DNA of 64,000 nucleotides, taken from Synechococcus sp. A18-25c (GTDB lineage Bacteria; Cyanobacteriota; Cyanobacteriia; PCC-6307; Cyanobiaceae). The notes below the pieces were generated by a model. It worked only from the letters and a program-made list of their open reading frames with translations. It had not been told where the DNA came from and searched no databases. Positions 30,520 to 39,260 of the stretch are shown piece after piece (position 1 is the first letter of the stretch; the number at the start of each line of letters is the position of its first letter). The stretch is taken from positions 2,418,001 through 2,482,000 of the forward strand of contig NZ_CP047957.1 in NCBI RefSeq assembly GCF_014280035.1, written 5' to 3'. The translations under genes were made by a program, and so were the position numbers.

Positions 30520-31385
30520 CCTATCAATACGCGGCAGCGGTGAGCCTTGGGGAACACCGCCTCTGCCTCAAACCACGGGCCCAGGGCTTTCAGACCCTGA
30601 TCGAGCATCAGCTCAGCGTGACACCAGAGCCCCATCAACGGCGAGAACTGCTGGCCGCCAGTGGTGATGAAATTCAGCGACTGATCTTTCTCGGTTGCAC
30701 CGATCAGCTCTGCTTTGAAGCTTGCAGCCTGGTGGAAACGCGCCCTGCACCAGCTCTGGAAACCTGCTTTAACGGGCTGGAAGTTCCCTTGCCTTACCCG
30801 CGCGGCCAACTGAACGTTGACCTTCAAGGAGCACTGGAAAGCTGGCTGCCGAATGGACAACACGAACCTTCGGTGATCGATCTCACCCAAGAAGCACTCA
30901 TGGGGAGCAACCAACACACGCTGGCATTTCTCAAGCAGCTCATGGCCTTGATTCAGGAGCGGGTCAAATACACCCAACGCCATGTGGGGCCGGCCTGGCC
31001 AGCGGGCCGCACCCTGCGAGAACGGATCGGATCCTGCCGTGACCTGGCCATGCTGATGGTGGCTTGTTGTCGCGTGGTGGGCTTGCCGGCCCGATTCGTC
31101 AGCGGCTATCAGCTACTGGAACCAGCACCCGATCAGTACGACCTGCACGCCTGGGCCGAGGTCTACCTCCCTGGCGCCGGCTGGCGAGGCTTTGATCCCA
31201 GCGCGGGCGGAGAAGTGACACAGCGCTACGTGGTTCTGGCCACATCATCCAAACCCGAACTCACTGCAGCAGTGAGCGGCAGTTTCAGTGGCCCACCTGA
31301 TACACCCAGTGAACTCAGTTGGTCGATCACTGTCGAAGAAAACGAGCTCAGCGATTGTGCACCGGCCGTCGTTCATGCCGCTTGA
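30492..31385 (+). CDS. transglutaminase-like cysteine protease family protein
   Basis: 297 residues. An N-terminal beta domain (RILHRLTYQYAAAVSLGEHR) precedes the transglutaminase-like core with Cys in GSCRDLAMLMVACCR, His in YDLHAWAEVYLPG and Asp in GFDPSAGG. It probably hydrolyses or transfers amide bonds made by the ATP-grasp partner. No signal peptide is visible, so it is likely cytoplasmic. Its 3' end overlaps the convergent cupin gene by 13 bases. Confidence 0.9.
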   Translation: MRARILHRLTYQYAAAVSLGEHRLCLKPRAQGFQTLIEHQLSVTPEPHQRRELLAASGDEIQRLIFLGCTDQLCFEACSLVETRPAPALETCFNGLEVPLPYPRGQLNVDLQGALESWLPNGQHEPSVIDLTQEALMGSNQHTLAFLKQLMALIQERVKYTQRHVGPAWPAGRTLRERIGSCRDLAMLMVACCRVVGLPARFVSGYQLLEPAPDQYDLHAWAEVYLPGAGWRGFDPSAGGEVTQRYVVLATSSKPELTAAVSGSFSGPPDTPSELSWSITVEENELSDCAPAVVHAA

Positions 31386-31867
31386 AGCAATGGTTCAACA
31401 CCATGGAGCCGCGGCTTCATCGCCGTGCTGACCGTGGCGGCCATCAGAGCAGGAATGCGAGCGCTGTTGTACACGCGGAATTCACGCAACAAAGACACTC
31501 CTGATTCGCGCACGGCTTGATTCAGAACCACTGATCCATCGGGATCAGAAATCGAACGATGGAACGTGCCCGGTGGAATGCGGAGGATGTCTCCACCGCT
31601 TTCCAGCCGCACGATATGGAAAGGCTGTTCCCAAGCCAGGTTGACCAAATAAAAGGTGCGGCCTCCGCTAGCGGCAAGGAGATTGTCTTCTTGATGGGGA
31701 TGCAAGTAAAACTGCCACGCACCGGAATCAGGATCGTTCGGAGGACTCACGGCCGGGCCGGAGTGAATGACCAGATCACGAGCGTTCGATGTATCAACCG
31801 TCACATCGAAAAACCGAACTGATGGCGTGTCGCGAAAGCGCTCGTATGACAACAGTTCGAACATCAC
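31373..31867 (-). CDS. cupin-domain protein
   Basis: 164 residues with a single cupin barrel. Possible metal ligands are in FYLHPHQEDNLLAASGG and the second motif around ILRIPPGTFHRSIS. Nothing indicates the substrate. Two ATGs in a row (31867, 31864) are possible starts. The gene converges on the transglutaminase-like gene, and its promoter must lie in the 78 bases before the moaA fragment, where GGGCCG/CGGCCC can pair (no T-run). Confidence 0.75.
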   Translation of the reverse strand: MMFELLSYERFRDTPSVRFFDVTVDTSNARDLVIHSGPAVSPPNDPDSGAWQFYLHPHQEDNLLAASGGRTFYLVNLAWEQPFHIVRLESGGDILRIPPGTFHRSISDPDGSVVLNQAVRESGVSLLREFRVYNSARIPALMAATVSTAMKPRLHGVEPLLQAA

Positions 31868-31945
31868 CGATGGGCCGAAGGACGGCCCGAACTCTCAGAC
31901 GTTTGTACCGAGCTTTTCGCTTAGAAACGGTGATATCGACGACGG

Positions 31946-32536
31946 TTCAACCACCCAGATAAGCCATTTCTGCTCGAGGGAGAGAATCAGCCGTGCAATG
32001 GCGCTCCTCGCTGTAGCGATCAGATCGTTTCTGCCAGAGAGAACGAATGGCATGCTCCAACTCCTGATCGGACCCCATGGCAGGGGTCAAATCAGTTCCT
32101 TGGGCAGCGAACAAACAAGTAAAAGCCTGACCATCGGCCGTAATGCGTAGACGGTTGCAATCACCGCAGAACGGCTCACTGATGGAAGCAACCACACCAA
32201 CGTCACTCACTTCATCGTGATAACGCCAACGCCGAGCAGTGCCTCCAGGGGTCCGACCCAGTGATCTGAGGGGCCAATGCTCAGCAATGCGCTGCACCAT
32301 CACCTCAGCCGGCAGCACCTGATCCATTCGCCAGCCATTGCGATTGCCCACATCCATGTATTCGATCAGGCGCAATTCCATCCTCTGACTGCGCGCCAGC
32401 TCCGCCAGGGGGATCAACTGATCGTCGTTCACACCCCGTTGAATCACCGCATTGAGCTTGAGGTCACCTGCAGCTGGATCGAACCCAGCAGCTCGTGCAG
32501 CGACCAGACCAGCCAGCACTTGCTGCACCAATCCAT
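31946..32536. repeat. 591-bp direct repeat, copy 1 (3' part of moaA)
   Basis: This stretch is repeated at 33485-34075 in the same orientation. By eye the two copies differ at only three positions (near 31953, 31962 and 32237). It covers roughly the last 195 codons of moaA and ends abruptly within a codon. Between the copies are 948 bases containing one unrelated gene. Confidence 0.95.
31947..32536 (-). pseudogene. moaA: truncated duplicate of moaA (C-terminal part)
   Basis: It encodes the same protein as the C-terminal ~195 residues of the intact MoaA at 33486-34535, apart from one Ala/Ser change in GGT(A/S)RRWRYH. It retains the C-terminal [4Fe-4S] cysteines (CGDCNRLRI...CLFA) and the terminal Gly-Gly, but has no radical-SAM CxxxCxxC domain, so it cannot work alone. 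The longest start in the fragment is a GTG at 32531. Near-identity means recent duplication or ongoing gene conversion. Confidence 0.9.
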
Positions 32537-32635
32537 GTTCAAACCGATCTGCAAACGCTGAAACGCAACTCGAAGCCGCCCAACACGTGACAACCAGTTG
32601 TGAGGCAGTAAATTTAAACCAGATTTGTTCTCCCG

Positions 32636-33475
32636 ATGCTTACAACACAACAGCAACTGTTGGAAAGTGCTTATGCAAACCAGACACAAAGAGTTCGTGA
32701 AATCTATCCATTGACATACAGTCCAAAAATATTCTCCTTAAGCTTCCAAAACAAGCTCCCACCAGTACAACGCTCCCTAATTCCCAACCACACAAGAGAC
32801 AATGATGTAACGCTCCAATCGATAGCCCAAGACGTAACATTCACTTATACACCCGAAGAATTTTTTCCAGGTTTCCCAAGGCCAGGTACCATGGAATTTG
32901 GGGAAGCCATTGTAAGCCTCGGATTAGACGAAAGCGGTAAAGTACTTTCATTCATCTGCCCTCAAGCCGAGCAAAATTTTACTCAGAATCTTGCTATTGG
33001 CTTAGTAGAACTTTCTGGAAAAGTAGAGGCTGAAATAGGCATGATCGGTGGCAGTGTCGATCCCATAACTGGTATTGGTACCGTTTATCTCGATGATGTG
33101 CAATTGTTGTTTTGGGGTGAAATCACAATCGATCCACTGTTGGGTCGGACTACCAGTTTTTATCTCGACAAAGACGAAGCCGCATTCATCCCGCTCACCA
33201 ATCTGCAGGGAGGCAGTGAACTGGTAGTGGACAGCTCAGGTGCTCCCAATGACAATACCTTCGCAAGACTCGAAATTTCGGCATTACAAGGCGTCAATCA
33301 AGGAGTTCAAGACGGCTTGTTACAGGAACTAATTATTGAAGGCATTAACCTTGAATTGCCAGGATTCGCAATCAAAGGGACCAGCCTTGAATGGACCGTC
33401 AATCTGCAAGATCCCCAGCCTATCTCTGGTGAGGCCTACGCGGAACAAGCTAACGACTTACACATGGGACATTGA
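32636..33475 (+). CDS. protein of unknown function between moaA repeats
   Basis: 279 residues, A+T-richer than everything around it. I recognise no family. The sequence is rich in beta-strand-like hydrophobic stretches: GTMEFGEAIVSLGLDESGKV, VELSGKVEAEIGMIGGSV, YLDDVQLLFWGEITIDPLLG and ELIIEGINLELPGFAIKG. There are no membrane spans and no clear signal peptide, so a cytoplasmic or non-classically exported beta protein is plausible. The ATG at 32636 follows A+T-rich DNA that could hold its own promoter. Composition and the flanking repeats suggest acquisition by transfer. Confidence 0.75.
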   Translation: MLTTQQQLLESAYANQTQRVREIYPLTYSPKIFSLSFQNKLPPVQRSLIPNHTRDNDVTLQSIAQDVTFTYTPEEFFPGFPRPGTMEFGEAIVSLGLDESGKVLSFICPQAEQNFTQNLAIGLVELSGKVEAEIGMIGGSVDPITGIGTVYLDDVQLLFWGEITIDPLLGRTTSFYLDKDEAAFIPLTNLQGGSELVVDSSGAPNDNTFARLEISALQGVNQGVQDGLLQELIIEGINLELPGFAIKGTSLEWTVNLQDPQPISGEAYAEQANDLHMGH

Positions 33476-33484
33476 TTCAATTAA

Positions 33485-34075
33485 TTCAACCGCCCAGATA
33501 GGCCATTTCTGCTCGAGGGAGAGAATCAGCCGTGCAATGGCGCTCCTCGCTGTAGCGATCAGATCGTTTCTGCCAGAGAGAACGAATGGCATGCTCCAAC
33601 TCCTGATCGGACCCCATGGCAGGGGTCAAATCAGTTCCTTGGGCAGCGAACAAACAAGTAAAAGCCTGACCATCGGCCGTAATGCGTAGACGGTTGCAAT
33701 CACCGCAGAACGGCTCACTGATGGAAGCAACCACACCAACGTCACTCACTTCATCGTGATAACGCCAACGCCGAGAAGTGCCTCCAGGGGTCCGACCCAG
33801 TGATCTGAGGGGCCAATGCTCAGCAATGCGCTGCACCATCACCTCAGCCGGCAGCACCTGATCCATTCGCCAGCCATTGCGATTGCCCACATCCATGTAT
33901 TCGATCAGGCGCAATTCCATCCTCTGACTGCGCGCCAGCTCCGCCAGGGGGATCAACTGATCGTCGTTCACACCCCGTTGAATCACCGCATTGAGCTTGA
34001 GGTCACCTGCAGCTGGATCGAACCCAGCAGCTCGTGCAGCGACCAGACCAGCCAGCACTTGCTGCACCAATCCAT
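33485..34075. repeat. 591-bp direct repeat, copy 2 (within intact moaA)
   Basis: This is the second copy of the repeat described at 31946-32536, offset by 1539 bases. Here it is continuous with the upstream part of moaA, so this is the functional copy. Recombination between the copies would delete the intervening gene and restore a single moaA. Confidence 0.95.
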
Positions 34076-34535
34076 CACCGGCACTCCGTCCGCCACGCAG
34101 TCCGGCCATCGTTGCTGCCACGGCGCCGTCAACAGCATCCAAGCTCACGGTGATGCGATCCAGGCCTGTGTTCTTCAAAGCCCTGGCGCGCCCCTCGGAC
34201 AGCAACACCCCATTGGTGGTGAGCGCCACGTCACGCAAACCAACCAGAGGATCGCCAGGGGTGCATCTGCCGTCGGCAACCCCGGCCAACAATGGCATCA
34301 ACCGATCACTAAGCAGGGGTTCACCACCGGTGAGGCGGAGGGTGCGCACACCGAGGCGAGCCGCAACGCGGATCAAACGCAACTGCTGATCCAGCGTCAA
34401 CGTTCCCGGAGGATCGGCGGAATCCGGACAGCAATAGGGACACGCCAAATTGCAACGGGCGGTCAGTGAGAGCCTCAGCACCCCCAGCGGCCTGGTCCAT
34501 TGATCAAGCGTCGACACTGGAGATGCGCAAGTCAT
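33486..34535 (-). CDS. moaA: GTP 3',8-cyclase MoaA
   Basis: This radical SAM enzyme performs the first step of molybdenum-cofactor synthesis from GTP. It has 349 residues, full length. N-terminal cluster motif CNLACPYC (CxxxCxxC), then LRLTGGEPLL, ERIMEYMDV-like LRLIEYMDVGN and the second cluster CGDCNRLRI. It ends in Gly-Gly as the family does. The ATG overlaps the mobA stop (ATGA). Its 3' half is duplicated beside the unknown gene. Confidence 0.96.
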   Translation of the reverse strand: MTCASPVSTLDQWTRPLGVLRLSLTARCNLACPYCCPDSADPPGTLTLDQQLRLIRVAARLGVRTLRLTGGEPLLSDRLMPLLAGVADGRCTPGDPLVGLRDVALTTNGVLLSEGRARALKNTGLDRITVSLDAVDGAVAATMAGLRGGRSAGDGLVQQVLAGLVAARAAGFDPAAGDLKLNAVIQRGVNDDQLIPLAELARSQRMELRLIEYMDVGNRNGWRMDQVLPAEVMVQRIAEHWPLRSLGRTPGGTSRRWRYHDEVSDVGVVASISEPFCGDCNRLRITADGQAFTCLFAAQGTDLTPAMGSDQELEHAIRSLWQKRSDRYSEERHCTADSLPRAEMAYLGG

Positions 34536-35119
34536 CCAACCAACGCTGCCAGATCGGTTGGATCATTCACATTGCTGAGCTGCTGCGCAGGCAGTTGCAG
34601 GCTGTCGTAATCAATCCGCTGCAGCCAGCCAAGCCATCGCGCCTGTCCATCACACAATTCAGCATCCAGCGCCGCGCGATTGATGGCACTACACGGGTAG
34701 ATGCCCAGCAAAGGCTGAAGACGTTGACCATCGTCGGCCACCAGCGCTCGCGATTCATTCCGACGCCAAGCGTCCAAAAGCGCTTGCAACGCCTCAATCT
34801 GCAACGCAGGCATGTCCACCGGCGAGGTCAGCAGAGCCTGGGTCTCATCGGCATTCAGCAGGCAACTGAGCGCACGAAGAGGCCCGGCGGGGCTCCATGG
34901 TTCGGCATGCACCGTGACCCCGAGCCAACCGGACAGACAGCGTCGATGGTTGGCATGAGCACTCATGACACACACCTCAAGCCCGAGGGAACGCAACAGC
35001 CGCACCTGCCGCTCCAACCAGGTGGATCCGTCCGCAGTGGTGATCAATGCTTTGTCGGTTCCCATCCGACGACTAGCACCGCCGGCAAACACCACTGCTC
35101 TGAGCGATCGCGAGCTCAC
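34532..35119 (-). CDS. mobA: molybdenum cofactor guanylyltransferase MobA
   Basis: A nucleotidyltransferase that attaches GMP to molybdopterin to give the guanine dinucleotide form, here presumably for NarB. 195 residues from a GTG at 35119, which has GAGG five bases upstream; the frame extends to 35179, but those residues do not fit. The signature VVFAGGASRRMGTDKAL is intact, and LTSPVDMPAL is the metal site. It leads moaA on the same strand and is divergent from nrtP, with a perfect NtcA-type box between. Confidence 0.92.
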   Translation of the reverse strand: MSSRSLRAVVFAGGASRRMGTDKALITTADGSTWLERQVRLLRSLGLEVCVMSAHANHRRCLSGWLGVTVHAEPWSPAGPLRALSCLLNADETQALLTSPVDMPALQIEALQALLDAWRRNESRALVADDGQRLQPLLGIYPCSAINRAALDAELCDGQARWLGWLQRIDYDSLQLPAQQLSNVNDPTDLAALVG

Positions 35120-35162
35120 AGGACCCTCAGAACGCCAGCTAATTAAAGACCGGCCGATACAC

Positions 35163-35176
35163 GTAACAACCGCTAC
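35163..35176. promoter_or_regulatory. perfect NtcA-type box between mobA and nrtP
   Basis: GTAACAACCGCTAC is an exact GTA-N8-TAC. Leftward, an A+T-rich -10 candidate (TAATTA) starts 18 bases beyond the box, close to the usual NtcA-promoter spacing, so it may activate mobA-moaA. Rightward it is 192 bases from nrtP with no clear -10 at the expected distance. Confidence 0.6.
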
Positions 35177-35235
35177 CAATCAATGCGTAGCAATGCTGAA
35201 CTTTCAGCCCCCAGACCCCCGAGTGGGGGATTTCG

Positions 35236-37031: not shown

Positions 37032-39260
37032 GTGACTGATTCCAGAGCTAACCCCACAAGCCAATGTCCTTACTGCGGCGTGGGCTGCGGCCTGGAACTG
37101 CTGCCTCCGGGCGAGGCAGGCAAATCCGTGAAGCGCGATGCTGAAGGCAATCCCATGTGGGCCGCACGCGGCGACCGCCAACACCCTTCCAGTCTCGGAC
37201 AGGTCTGCATCAAAGGCGCCACGGTGGGTGAAACCCTGGCCCGCGGACGTTTAAATCGACCGCTGTACCGCCCCACACTCAACGACGACTTTCAACCGAT
37301 TAGCTGGGACAGCGCTTTTGATCTACTGACCGGACGCATCCGCAGCACTCTGGCCAGCAAAGGACCCAACGCCATCGCCATGTATGGGTCAGGCCAGTTT
37401 CATACCGAGGATTACTACCTGGCTCAGAAACTCCTGAAAGGAGCGCTGGGAACCAACAATTTCGATGCCAACTCGCGGCTGTGTATGAGCTCCGCGGTGG
37501 CTGGATACACACGAAGCCTGGGATCGGATGGTCCTCCCTGTTGCTACGAAGATTTGGACCATTGCTCGGTGGCCTTCCTCATCGGCACCAACACGGCCGA
37601 GTGCCACCCTGTGTTGTTCCAGCGACTGCTGAAGCGGAAAAAACGTGACCCAAAAGGGCTCACCATCGTGGTGGTGGACCCGCGCAAGACCGACACCACC
37701 AAAATTGCTGACCACCATCTAGCGATCGCTCCAGGCACAGACCTCGCGCTCCTTCACGGCCTGGCACGACTGGTCATCCAAGACAACGGCTTTGATAGCG
37801 ATTTCATCGATGCAGCCACCGAAGGCTTCGCGTCGTACACCCAGACCATCAATGCCTGGACCCCCGGCAAAACCGCCAAGTTCTGCGGAATCACTGAACA
37901 GGATCTGCGCGCCGTCGGCCGACTATGGAGTCGCAAAGAAGGTGTGCTCAGTCTCTGGTCGATGGGGGTCAACCAGCGCCGAGAAGGAACGGCAGTGGTC
38001 AGTGGACTGATCAATCTGCACCTGCTCACCGGAGAAATCGGCAAGCCAGGCGCCGGGCCCTTCTCGCTCACCGGTCAACCCAATGCCATGGGCGGCCGTG
38101 AAGCCGGAGGACTGGCACATCTGCTACCTGGATACAGGGTGGTGACCAACCCGGACCACAGGGCAGAGGTGGAGCAAGCCTGGGGGTTCGCCAAAGACTC
38201 CATTGCGGCAGCCCCAGGACTGAACGCCTGGCAGCAGGTGGAGGCAATGGAGCAGGGCGAGCTCGATCTGTGGTGGGTGGCAGCCACCAATCCATTGGTG
38301 AGCATGCCCGACCTGGAGAGAGTGAAAAGCGCCATGCAGCGTTGTCCGCTCGTGGTTGTCAGTGAGGCTTACGCCGACACGGAAACCTCCCACTACGCCC
38401 ATCTGCTGCTGCCCGCATCGCAGTGGAGCGAAAAATCGGGAGCGATGACCAATTCAGAACGACGTGTCACCTACTGCCCGTCATTTCGACCACGCCACGG
38501 CGAAAGCCGTCCTGATTGGGAGGTGTTCGCTGAACTTGGACGTCGGCTGGGATTCGCCGAGCAGTTCACGTATGCGTCCTCAGCGGAGGTTTACGCAGAA
38601 TTCGCAACTCTCACCGAAGGCCGCGTCTGTGATGTCTCCGGCCTCAGCCATGGCCTGCTTCACTCCCACGGGTCGCAGCAATGGCCCTTCCCCAAAGGAC
38701 ATGAGCCAACCCGCACCTCCAAGCGGCTTTACGTCGGCAAACGATTCCCAACAGCCAGTGGTCGTGCCCGGTTCCAATCAGAGGCTCCGCTCGGCCTAGC
38801 CGAACCACCCTGTGATGTTTACCCACTGGTACTCACCGTGGGCCGTTACCTCGGCCAATGGCACACCATGACCCGCACAGGCATGGTGCAACGACTCAAC
38901 GACATGCATCCGCAACCACGCCTGGAAATGCATCCCGAGGATGCCAAGGTCTACGGCGTCGAAGACAACGGACTGGCCGCGATCACATCCCGGCGCGGAA
39001 CCCTGACCTCCCGCGTCACGCTGACGGATCGAATTCGCCGCGGCTCTGTGTTTCTGCCAATGCACTGGGGCTTTACACAGGCCGAAGCCTGTGAAGCCAA
39101 CACCCTGATGCATGAGGAATCCTGCCCGATCTCAAAACAGCCGGAACTCAAAGCCTCCGCCGTCGTGGTCGCCCCCGCGGTATCGGTGAGGAAACCCACT
39201 GAACAGCAAACCGGACGGCTGGAAAGCCTGCGCCGACTGCTTATCCCAGCACTTCGGTAA
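37032..39260 (+). CDS. narB: ferredoxin-nitrate reductase NarB
   Basis: 742 residues of the Mo-bis-MGD oxidoreductase family; it reduces nitrate to nitrite with reduced ferredoxin in the cytoplasm. The N-terminal [4Fe-4S] cysteines are in CPYCGVGCGLELL and VCIKG. Pterin-binding segments include ANSRLCMSSAVAGYTRS-type DANSRLCMSS, GTNTAECHPVLF and VVDPRKTDT; the C-terminus has the MGD domain (TVGRYLGQWHTMTRTG). Start is GTG 37032, after a terminator. The 3' end overlaps the convergent NRAP gene by 20 bases. Confidence 0.96.
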   Translation: MTDSRANPTSQCPYCGVGCGLELLPPGEAGKSVKRDAEGNPMWAARGDRQHPSSLGQVCIKGATVGETLARGRLNRPLYRPTLNDDFQPISWDSAFDLLTGRIRSTLASKGPNAIAMYGSGQFHTEDYYLAQKLLKGALGTNNFDANSRLCMSSAVAGYTRSLGSDGPPCCYEDLDHCSVAFLIGTNTAECHPVLFQRLLKRKKRDPKGLTIVVVDPRKTDTTKIADHHLAIAPGTDLALLHGLARLVIQDNGFDSDFIDAATEGFASYTQTINAWTPGKTAKFCGITEQDLRAVGRLWSRKEGVLSLWSMGVNQRREGTAVVSGLINLHLLTGEIGKPGAGPFSLTGQPNAMGGREAGGLAHLLPGYRVVTNPDHRAEVEQAWGFAKDSIAAAPGLNAWQQVEAMEQGELDLWWVAATNPLVSMPDLERVKSAMQRCPLVVVSEAYADTETSHYAHLLLPASQWSEKSGAMTNSERRVTYCPSFRPRHGESRPDWEVFAELGRRLGFAEQFTYASSAEVYAEFATLTEGRVCDVSGLSHGLLHSHGSQQWPFPKGHEPTRTSKRLYVGKRFPTASGRARFQSEAPLGLAEPPCDVYPLVLTVGRYLGQWHTMTRTGMVQRLNDMHPQPRLEMHPEDAKVYGVEDNGLAAITSRRGTLTSRVTLTDRIRRGSVFLPMHWGFTQAEACEANTLMHEESCPISKQPELKASAVVVAPAVSVRKPTEQQTGRLESLRRLLIPALR

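Follow-up and report, generated by a model that had tools for sequence, protein, structure and literature searches.

A recurrent insertion-duplication at the 3' end of moaA in Synechococcus sp. A18-25c and related genomes

Known routes of gene entry and the repeat pair of A18-25c

Islands inserted at the 3' ends of tRNA genes or of guaA leave the target gene whole, with a 3' fragment of it at the far edge, and come with an integrase and a short core. Integration through one crossover leaves direct repeats of the homologous stretch. According to passages of PMC3240628, regions of homology allow foreign DNA into a genome by two routes that need no integrase: a circle integrates through one crossover, and a linear piece is joined by homology at one end and illegitimately at the other. 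Duplications also arise in transformation-generated merodiploids, upon uptake of DNA that is partly repeated in the chromosome (passages of PMC3784515). Tycheposons, which were first described in marine Prochlorococcus, are cargo-carrying elements of 4-200 kb with a border tRNA and a tyrosine recombinase (passages of PMC10872708). As for moaA itself, the passages of Berube et al. 2019 considered here (PMC6370341) report a general agreement of the MoaA and NarB trees with the core phylogeny at the clade level, and a role of homologous recombination in shaping the nitrate cluster of Prochlorococcus. The corresponding part of PMC10119275 names moaA once, in a gene list, and the moaA passages considered from these two open-access papers hold no description of a partial moaA or of the insertion site presented here.

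The window, i.e. the whole stretch of 64,000 nucleotides that was analysed, comes from a genome assembled as a single contig of 2,511,360 bases (G000), in which it is found at one place. A preliminary description of this DNA reported direct repeats of 591 bp with about three differences, and the base-by-base alignment agrees with it: R1 (31946-32536) and R2 (33485-34075), both on the minus strand, are 591 bases long and differ by 3 mismatches without gaps (ungapped comparison, offset 1539), located at 31953/33492 (A/G), 31962/33501 (A/G) and 32237/33776 (C/A). Both edges of the similarity are sharp: one is located 1 base beyond the moaA stop codon and the other at moaA nucleotide ~461 (~codon 154). 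R2 is the 3' part of an intact moaA (33486-34535, minus strand), which codes for a GTP 3',8-cyclase of 349 aa with radical-SAM (PF04055) and Mob_synth_C (PF06463) domains both above the cut-off, and with a score against TIGR02666 (273.5 bits) slightly below the cut-off of 284.05. R1 is, as had been described, a headless copy: its frame is open and matches the C-terminal domain (Mob_synth_C), with no radical-SAM domain. The spacer (32537-33484) has the 948 bases and the one A+T-richer gene reported earlier. It consists of an inner junction J (32537-32635), which is not moaA-like and shows no similarity to the 5' part of moaA, and of gene X (32636-33475, plus strand, 279 aa), which is convergent with moaA with 10 bases between the two stop codons. 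The GC content is 45.3% for the spacer and 45.2% for gene X, compared with 56.9/57.0% for the repeats and 58.7% for the window.

R1 is joined to the native region upstream of the next gene (31868-31945, minus strand), which is conserved between species. This next gene is a cupin-like gene (31373-31867, minus strand, 164 aa), a weak assignment (PF03079, E 0.12, below the cut-off), which marks the conserved junction. On the other side, a mobA-like gene (34532-35179, minus strand, start uncertain) lies upstream of moaA in a context that is conserved according to tblastn synteny. The names cupin-like, mobA, nrtP, narB, transglutaminase, alpha-E and purT are putative, being suggested by the sequences and by the order of the genes. 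An imperfect 26-nt inverted pair (77%) was also observed, one arm of which (32535-32560) is exactly at the edge between R1 and the junction, its partner (34541-34566) being near the moaA start, beyond R2; it is possibly due to chance. Further along the window, narB (37032-39260) codes for a protein whose identity to its relatives falls into two groups (~72-76% and 81-97%), the neighbouring transporter being at 82-97%; judging by these identities, the narB allele may have been replaced.

R1/R2 is the sole direct repeat reported in the 64-kb window (minimum length 80 bp, seed 14). A 452-kb sample (~18% of the same genome) has 18 direct-repeat pairs of at least 80 bp whose starts are no more than 15 kb apart, and no pair but this one is above 85% identity. 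Identities of 67-84% were obtained for the remaining 17, of which 9 overlap or are at most 60 bases apart (internal or tandem repeats). The moaA repeat pair is beyond chance.

The moaA junction and gene X in relatives

The MoaA search within 31 genomes of the genus gave a long moaA match in 25, and weak matches only (E 1e-4 to 9e-4), taken as other radical-SAM genes, in the remaining 6. Four of the 25 (G000, G216, G206 and G220) have an occupied junction, in which an additional piece of moaA, from its C-terminal part, separates moaA from the cupin-like gene, and moaA is intact in all four. The junction is empty in the other 21, as well as in the 5 genomes checked in the neighbouring genus, with a gap of 61-110 bp between moaA and the cupin-like gene. 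The latter follows moaA, directly or past the insert, in 30 of the 30 loci compared (G000 included). The locus is thus a real, natural and recurrent insertion-duplication at the moaA 3' end. The earlier reading of the arrangement, as inserted DNA which duplicated the moaA end and kept the gene whole, is in accordance with these empty sites and with X being A+T-rich and sporadic.

G216 has the same headless copy, inner junction and gene X, the latter in the same place and orientation (90% protein and 93.1% DNA identity). When the junction (32537-32700) was used as a query for the 31 genus genomes, it found, besides itself, the same place in G216 (75%, E 1.3e-24), the next best match being 22 bases long in G075 (E 0.005). 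Since the two genomes have the inner junction J in common, the insertion is common to both. X is absent from G206 and G220. Their cargo consists of a DUF5672 protein (93% identical between the two, present in 2 of the 31 genus genomes) and a 585-aa group-1 glycosyltransferase, which is intact in G206 and broken in G220 (L042:6879-8020), so that the cargo of the site is decaying in G220. More distant relatives of the glycosyltransferase are found elsewhere in G220 (47%) and in G215 (39%).

Besides their cargo, G206 and G220 have a central deletion of R1 in common. The 3' edge of the duplication is at the stop codon in G000/G216 and at the start codon of the next gene, ~85 bases further, in G206/G220. 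The junction is empty in the lines of G221 and of G208/G211/G212/G217, and in the two flank trees these empty genomes form a clade with G206 and G220 that does not include G000/G216; the trees, one of which lacks G211, differ in other branches. From this we infer two separate insertions, one in G000/G216 and one in G206/G220, as the simpler reading. One old insertion followed by cargo replacement and clean losses is a possible alternative, which breakpoints near codons 154-158 would suit. The duplication starts at ~codon 154 in G000/G216 and the similarity in G220 starts at ~codon 158, the likeness of R1 to moaA not being traceable upstream of these positions (G000 and G220, respectively). A common 5' breakpoint might point to one event or to a fixed site, but what similarity G220 has further upstream is ambiguous (its score is reached by 109 of 1000 shuffles), and the 5' edges are blurred in G206/G220.

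In a wider draw of 400 genomes of the family, at least 35 had two or more MoaA matches, and 34 were re-searched with the C-terminal half (G156 was left out, its extra matches being N-terminal and on other contigs). Among the matches listed, a partial copy adjoining moaA is found only in the same four genomes, and a rare case outside the genus is possible. Other genomes with several matches have second whole moaA copies, not partial ones (such as G318, G342, G343, G268 and G374), and moaA fragments on broken assemblies (such as G080, G084, G176, G275, G310 and G319) were unplaceable and excluded from the count. The two moaA copies of G374 (G374:C1:1079231 and 1302569) have identical match scores and are 223 kb apart in a 1.8-Mb genome; this pair may be the known duplicate nitrate cluster of Prochlorococcus MIT0604.

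Gene X has no match in Pfam, PHROG or NCBIfam. It occurs in 2 of the 31 genus genomes (G000 and G216), and homologues were found in 7 of 201 sampled family genomes, the window's included, the one in G071 being in two pieces with stops. The named genome collection has 6 homologous loci, all titled Synechococcus, Prochlorococcus or Prochlorococcaceae, some of which are the same records as family-sample genomes. No match to X was found in viral contigs, phages or plasmids, the viral scans reaching close relatives only. The homologues are located at several unrelated loci: next to a purT-like gene, at a Prochlorococcus site, at another Synechococcus site (L083) and in a transposase region of G134. 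The purT-like neighbour, observed in two genomes (G061 and MED650; L052:10336-11424 and L081:5650-6693), marks a second locus for the family, and a contig of CPC35 (L086) has the same upstream neighbours and ends in X. Weak EF-hand matches, below the cut-off, were obtained for three longer homologues (in the N-terminal part of the L052 copy) and none for X itself. A structure of X predicted by AlphaFold2 from 6 sequences was unusable (mean pLDDT 39.4), and a sequence search against solved structures gave chance-level matches only (best E 0.26).

In G134 (L053:6956-11078), the X homologue is enclosed by direct repeats (602 bp at 98% and 337 bp at 87.5%). They span the 3' part and the downstream region of a 497-aa recombinase-like gene, which is the same layout as at moaA. 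The assignment of this gene is weak: it has no Pfam match and matches the PHROG 216 integrase at E 0.013-0.086, and one of the PF00589 hits of G000 is similar to it at E 7e-7. This shows that mobile regions can harbour X; the case is a single one, from a region rich in repeats, and could be a coincidence. No repeat pair was found at L052, L054, L055, L081 or L083, and the one 68-bp pair of L086 is away from X.

Age and origin of the two copies

The near-identity of R1 and R2 had been taken to mean either a recent event or gene conversion. The second part of this claim is well supported, as the two copies cluster by genome and those of G216 form a patchwork, and the first is not supported, the insertion being common to G216, with 86% nucleotide identity between the two species in the 5' part of moaA. 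Over the common span, R1 and R2 of G000 are 99.1% identical (341/344), compared with 88.7% between the R2 copies of G000 and G216 and 85.2% between their R1 copies. The tree built from the 344-column alignment pairs the copies by genome (splits of 94 and 87); with the 261 columns of the shortest common region, the G000 pair holds (100) and the G216 pair is no longer monophyletic (61). Between R1 and R2 of G216 the differences are distributed unevenly: the first 200 columns have 23 of them, the 143 that follow have 1 and the final 6 have 2. Of the three mismatches in G000, two are within 17 bases of a repeat edge, as expected where a conversion tract ends. With an insertion that the two genomes share, copies that had escaped conversion should differ within G000 as much as between the species. 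That the near-identity reflects gene conversion, and not recency, is therefore well supported by these alignments, and conversion within each genome would account for the 99.5% identity of the two copies in the window. The split from the sister species probably came after the insertion. The truncated copy at the cupin-moaA junction is a diverged feature in relatives, a result which the preliminary description had itself set against recency. X, with its 93.1% identity between G000 and G216, is slightly above the five flanking stretches compared (86.3-92.3%), and a recent transfer of the whole locus between these species is a possible alternative that also fits.

Our favoured explanation, which we hold to be fairly probable, is an old insertion-duplication by homologous recombination without an integrase, followed by gene conversion. 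DNA from a related strain, in which an allelic moaA 3' stretch was joined to gene X, would have recombined into the resident moaA, either as a circle integrated through one crossover, or as a fragment held by homology to moaA at one end only and joined illegitimately at the other. In the product, moaA would be whole and end in R2, the new gene would follow, and the resident 3' end of moaA would remain as R1 next to its original neighbour; R1 and R2 would later have exchanged sequence by gene conversion within each genome. A similar event would have put the glycosyltransferase cargo at the same junction in the sister lineage. That a repeat structure is to be expected at moaA from the routes given in passages of PMC3240628 is our own inference. 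All four occupied genomes encode a ComEC-family protein (PF03772), which allows DNA uptake and is no proof of competence. The 5' starts of the duplication are close together (~codons 154-158), which chance breakpoints would not predict, and this counts against the explanation that we favour. A further idea, which we regard as rather doubtful, is that the moaA 3' end serves as a recombinase-free docking site, the duplicated ends being reusable as homologous attachment sites and kept matched by conversion, and the cargo being swapped or looped out by RecA recombination, which would leave scarless empty sites in sister strains.

It is unlikely, in our estimation, that a small site-specific integrative element entered at the moaA 3' end, carrying a replacement end, and then lost its integrase. 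Such an element would keep moaA whole, and the occupation of the same site with two kinds of cargo speaks for it, as does the X homologue of G134 (L053), found amid transposase genes and between two recombinase-like 3' copies. However, no integrase domain was found in X or in the G206 cargo, and the distance to the nearest PF00589 hit is 0.41 Mb for G000, 0.40 Mb for G216 and 0.28 Mb for G206 (single-contig chromosomes being treated as circles), the hits of G220 being on contigs other than that of moaA; PF00589 can miss divergent recombinases. No tRNA was found in the window or in the loci L040, L041 and L042. The repeats are hundreds of bases long instead of a short core, and the 3' edge differs by ~85 bases between G000/G216 and G206/G220. 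The likeness to mobile elements at tRNA or guaA ends, which had been suggested for this locus, is not upheld by these results. Viral contigs and phage records gave no close carrier of the moaA end, within scans that reach close relatives only. The 17 phage records with a MoaA-like stretch were rejected as donors, as all are below 60% identity and none is named as a cyanophage.

The substitutions between the two copies bear on another possibility, namely that X adjoined moaA first and that a later local tandem duplication copied the moaA 3' half to its far side, the copy then decaying. In G216, ~17.5 silent and ~6.5 non-silent changes separate R1 from R2 (pS 0.212, pN 0.025), with a pN/pS of 0.12, no higher than in five orthologous moaA pairs (pN/pS 0.15-0.25), whereas decay of R1 would predict 65-76% non-silent changes (P 4e-4 at omega 0.6 and 2e-6 at omega 1, i.e. 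neutral). The G220 copies are intermediate (pN/pS 0.26; P 0.011 and 1e-4 at omega 0.6 and 1, respectively). Those of G206 (pN/pS 0.39) fit decay at omega 0.6 (P 0.17) and are mildly against the neutral case (P 0.012), and in G000, with 3 differences left, the allelic pattern is erased. The G216 copies would thus differ like two working alleles and not like a decaying duplicate, a pattern which fits an insert bringing its own moaA end from a related strain, the headless copy decaying later. The mostly silent changes would also fit R1 having been a working gene under selection in G216, or a later import of a moaA allele. A tandem duplication has the advantage of needing no foreign moaA, and it agrees with the G206 values and with the state of R1 in G206, where a conserved cysteine is lost, and in G220, where R1 is frameshifted with stops. 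It is nevertheless at odds with the G216 pattern, and with R1 being on the cupin side of X, so that the loss of a second X would also be required; we judge it improbable.

R1 could also have been retained for a role, as promoter of the next gene or as a MoaA C-terminal peptide, to which we give little credence. The conserved upstream region of the next gene is attached to R1 in all four occupied genomes, and R1 is open in G000 (open frame of 230 codons) and has an ATG start in G216. Window positions 31868-31950 and 17 orthologous regions (18 genomes) share the invariant columns TGAA.CGT (at the moaA stop), ACC.TTT and TA.AA. A hairpin before the cupin-like gene, plausible by eye, was rejected as RNAalifold predicted no pair, and Rfam gave no match over 31300-34600. 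Since the upstream region of the cupin-like gene stays with R1, R1 may persist as the holder of a control region. Against a role, R1 is broken in G220 and lacks the conserved cysteine in G206, its first in-frame ATG/GTG/TTG in G000 is a TTG at codon ~156, and a promoter scan of 31860-33520 gave 2 sites, neither on the R1 strand, compared with 1.8 in shuffles. Moreover, a role would explain the retention of R1, not its origin. An assembly artefact, for which near-identical repeats are a classic source, is negligible here, the same arrangement with diverged copies in the independent genomes G216, G206 and G220 making misassembly unlikely.

The locus suggests a way for single accessory genes to be gained by picocyanobacteria, at a core locus of nitrate assimilation and without the machinery of mobile elements. 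It also suggests that near-identical flanking repeats do not date such insertions, because gene conversion resets their identity, which is then no clock. Should cargo indeed loop out cleanly between the repeats, a sister strain with an empty site could still have carried the gene in the past.

Comparison with known systems

A transposon or insertion sequence is characterised by a transposase and terminal inverted repeats: X has no match to a transposase, and none of the 5 inverted pairs bounds the insert. As in the islands at tRNA genes and guaA, a whole target gene is accompanied by a 3' fragment at moaA, so that the target is restored; the integrase inside the element and the short core of those islands are not seen. 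Tycheposons, as set out in passages of PMC10872708, are likewise carriers of cargo; the moaA insert differs from them in having neither their size nor the tRNA boundary and tyrosine recombinase. The merodiploids of PMC3784515, in the passages concerned, are tandem duplications of ~100-900 kb, compared with ~0.6 kb around a foreign gene at moaA. In Prochlorococcus MIT0604, whole nitrate clusters are duplicated in separate genomic islands (passages of PMC6370341), whereas the present case is a partial moaA around one gene. The long homologous direct repeats around non-homologous DNA, at a site which is empty in relatives, are those of an insertion-duplication. Single crossover and homology-facilitated illegitimate recombination, in the passages of PMC3240628, come from laboratory work with E. 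coli; the moaA case is read from natural genomes, and no donor was found in viral contigs or phages. An event of this kind is thus known in principle, and the new part is, with no integrase found, its recurrence at moaA with different cargo.
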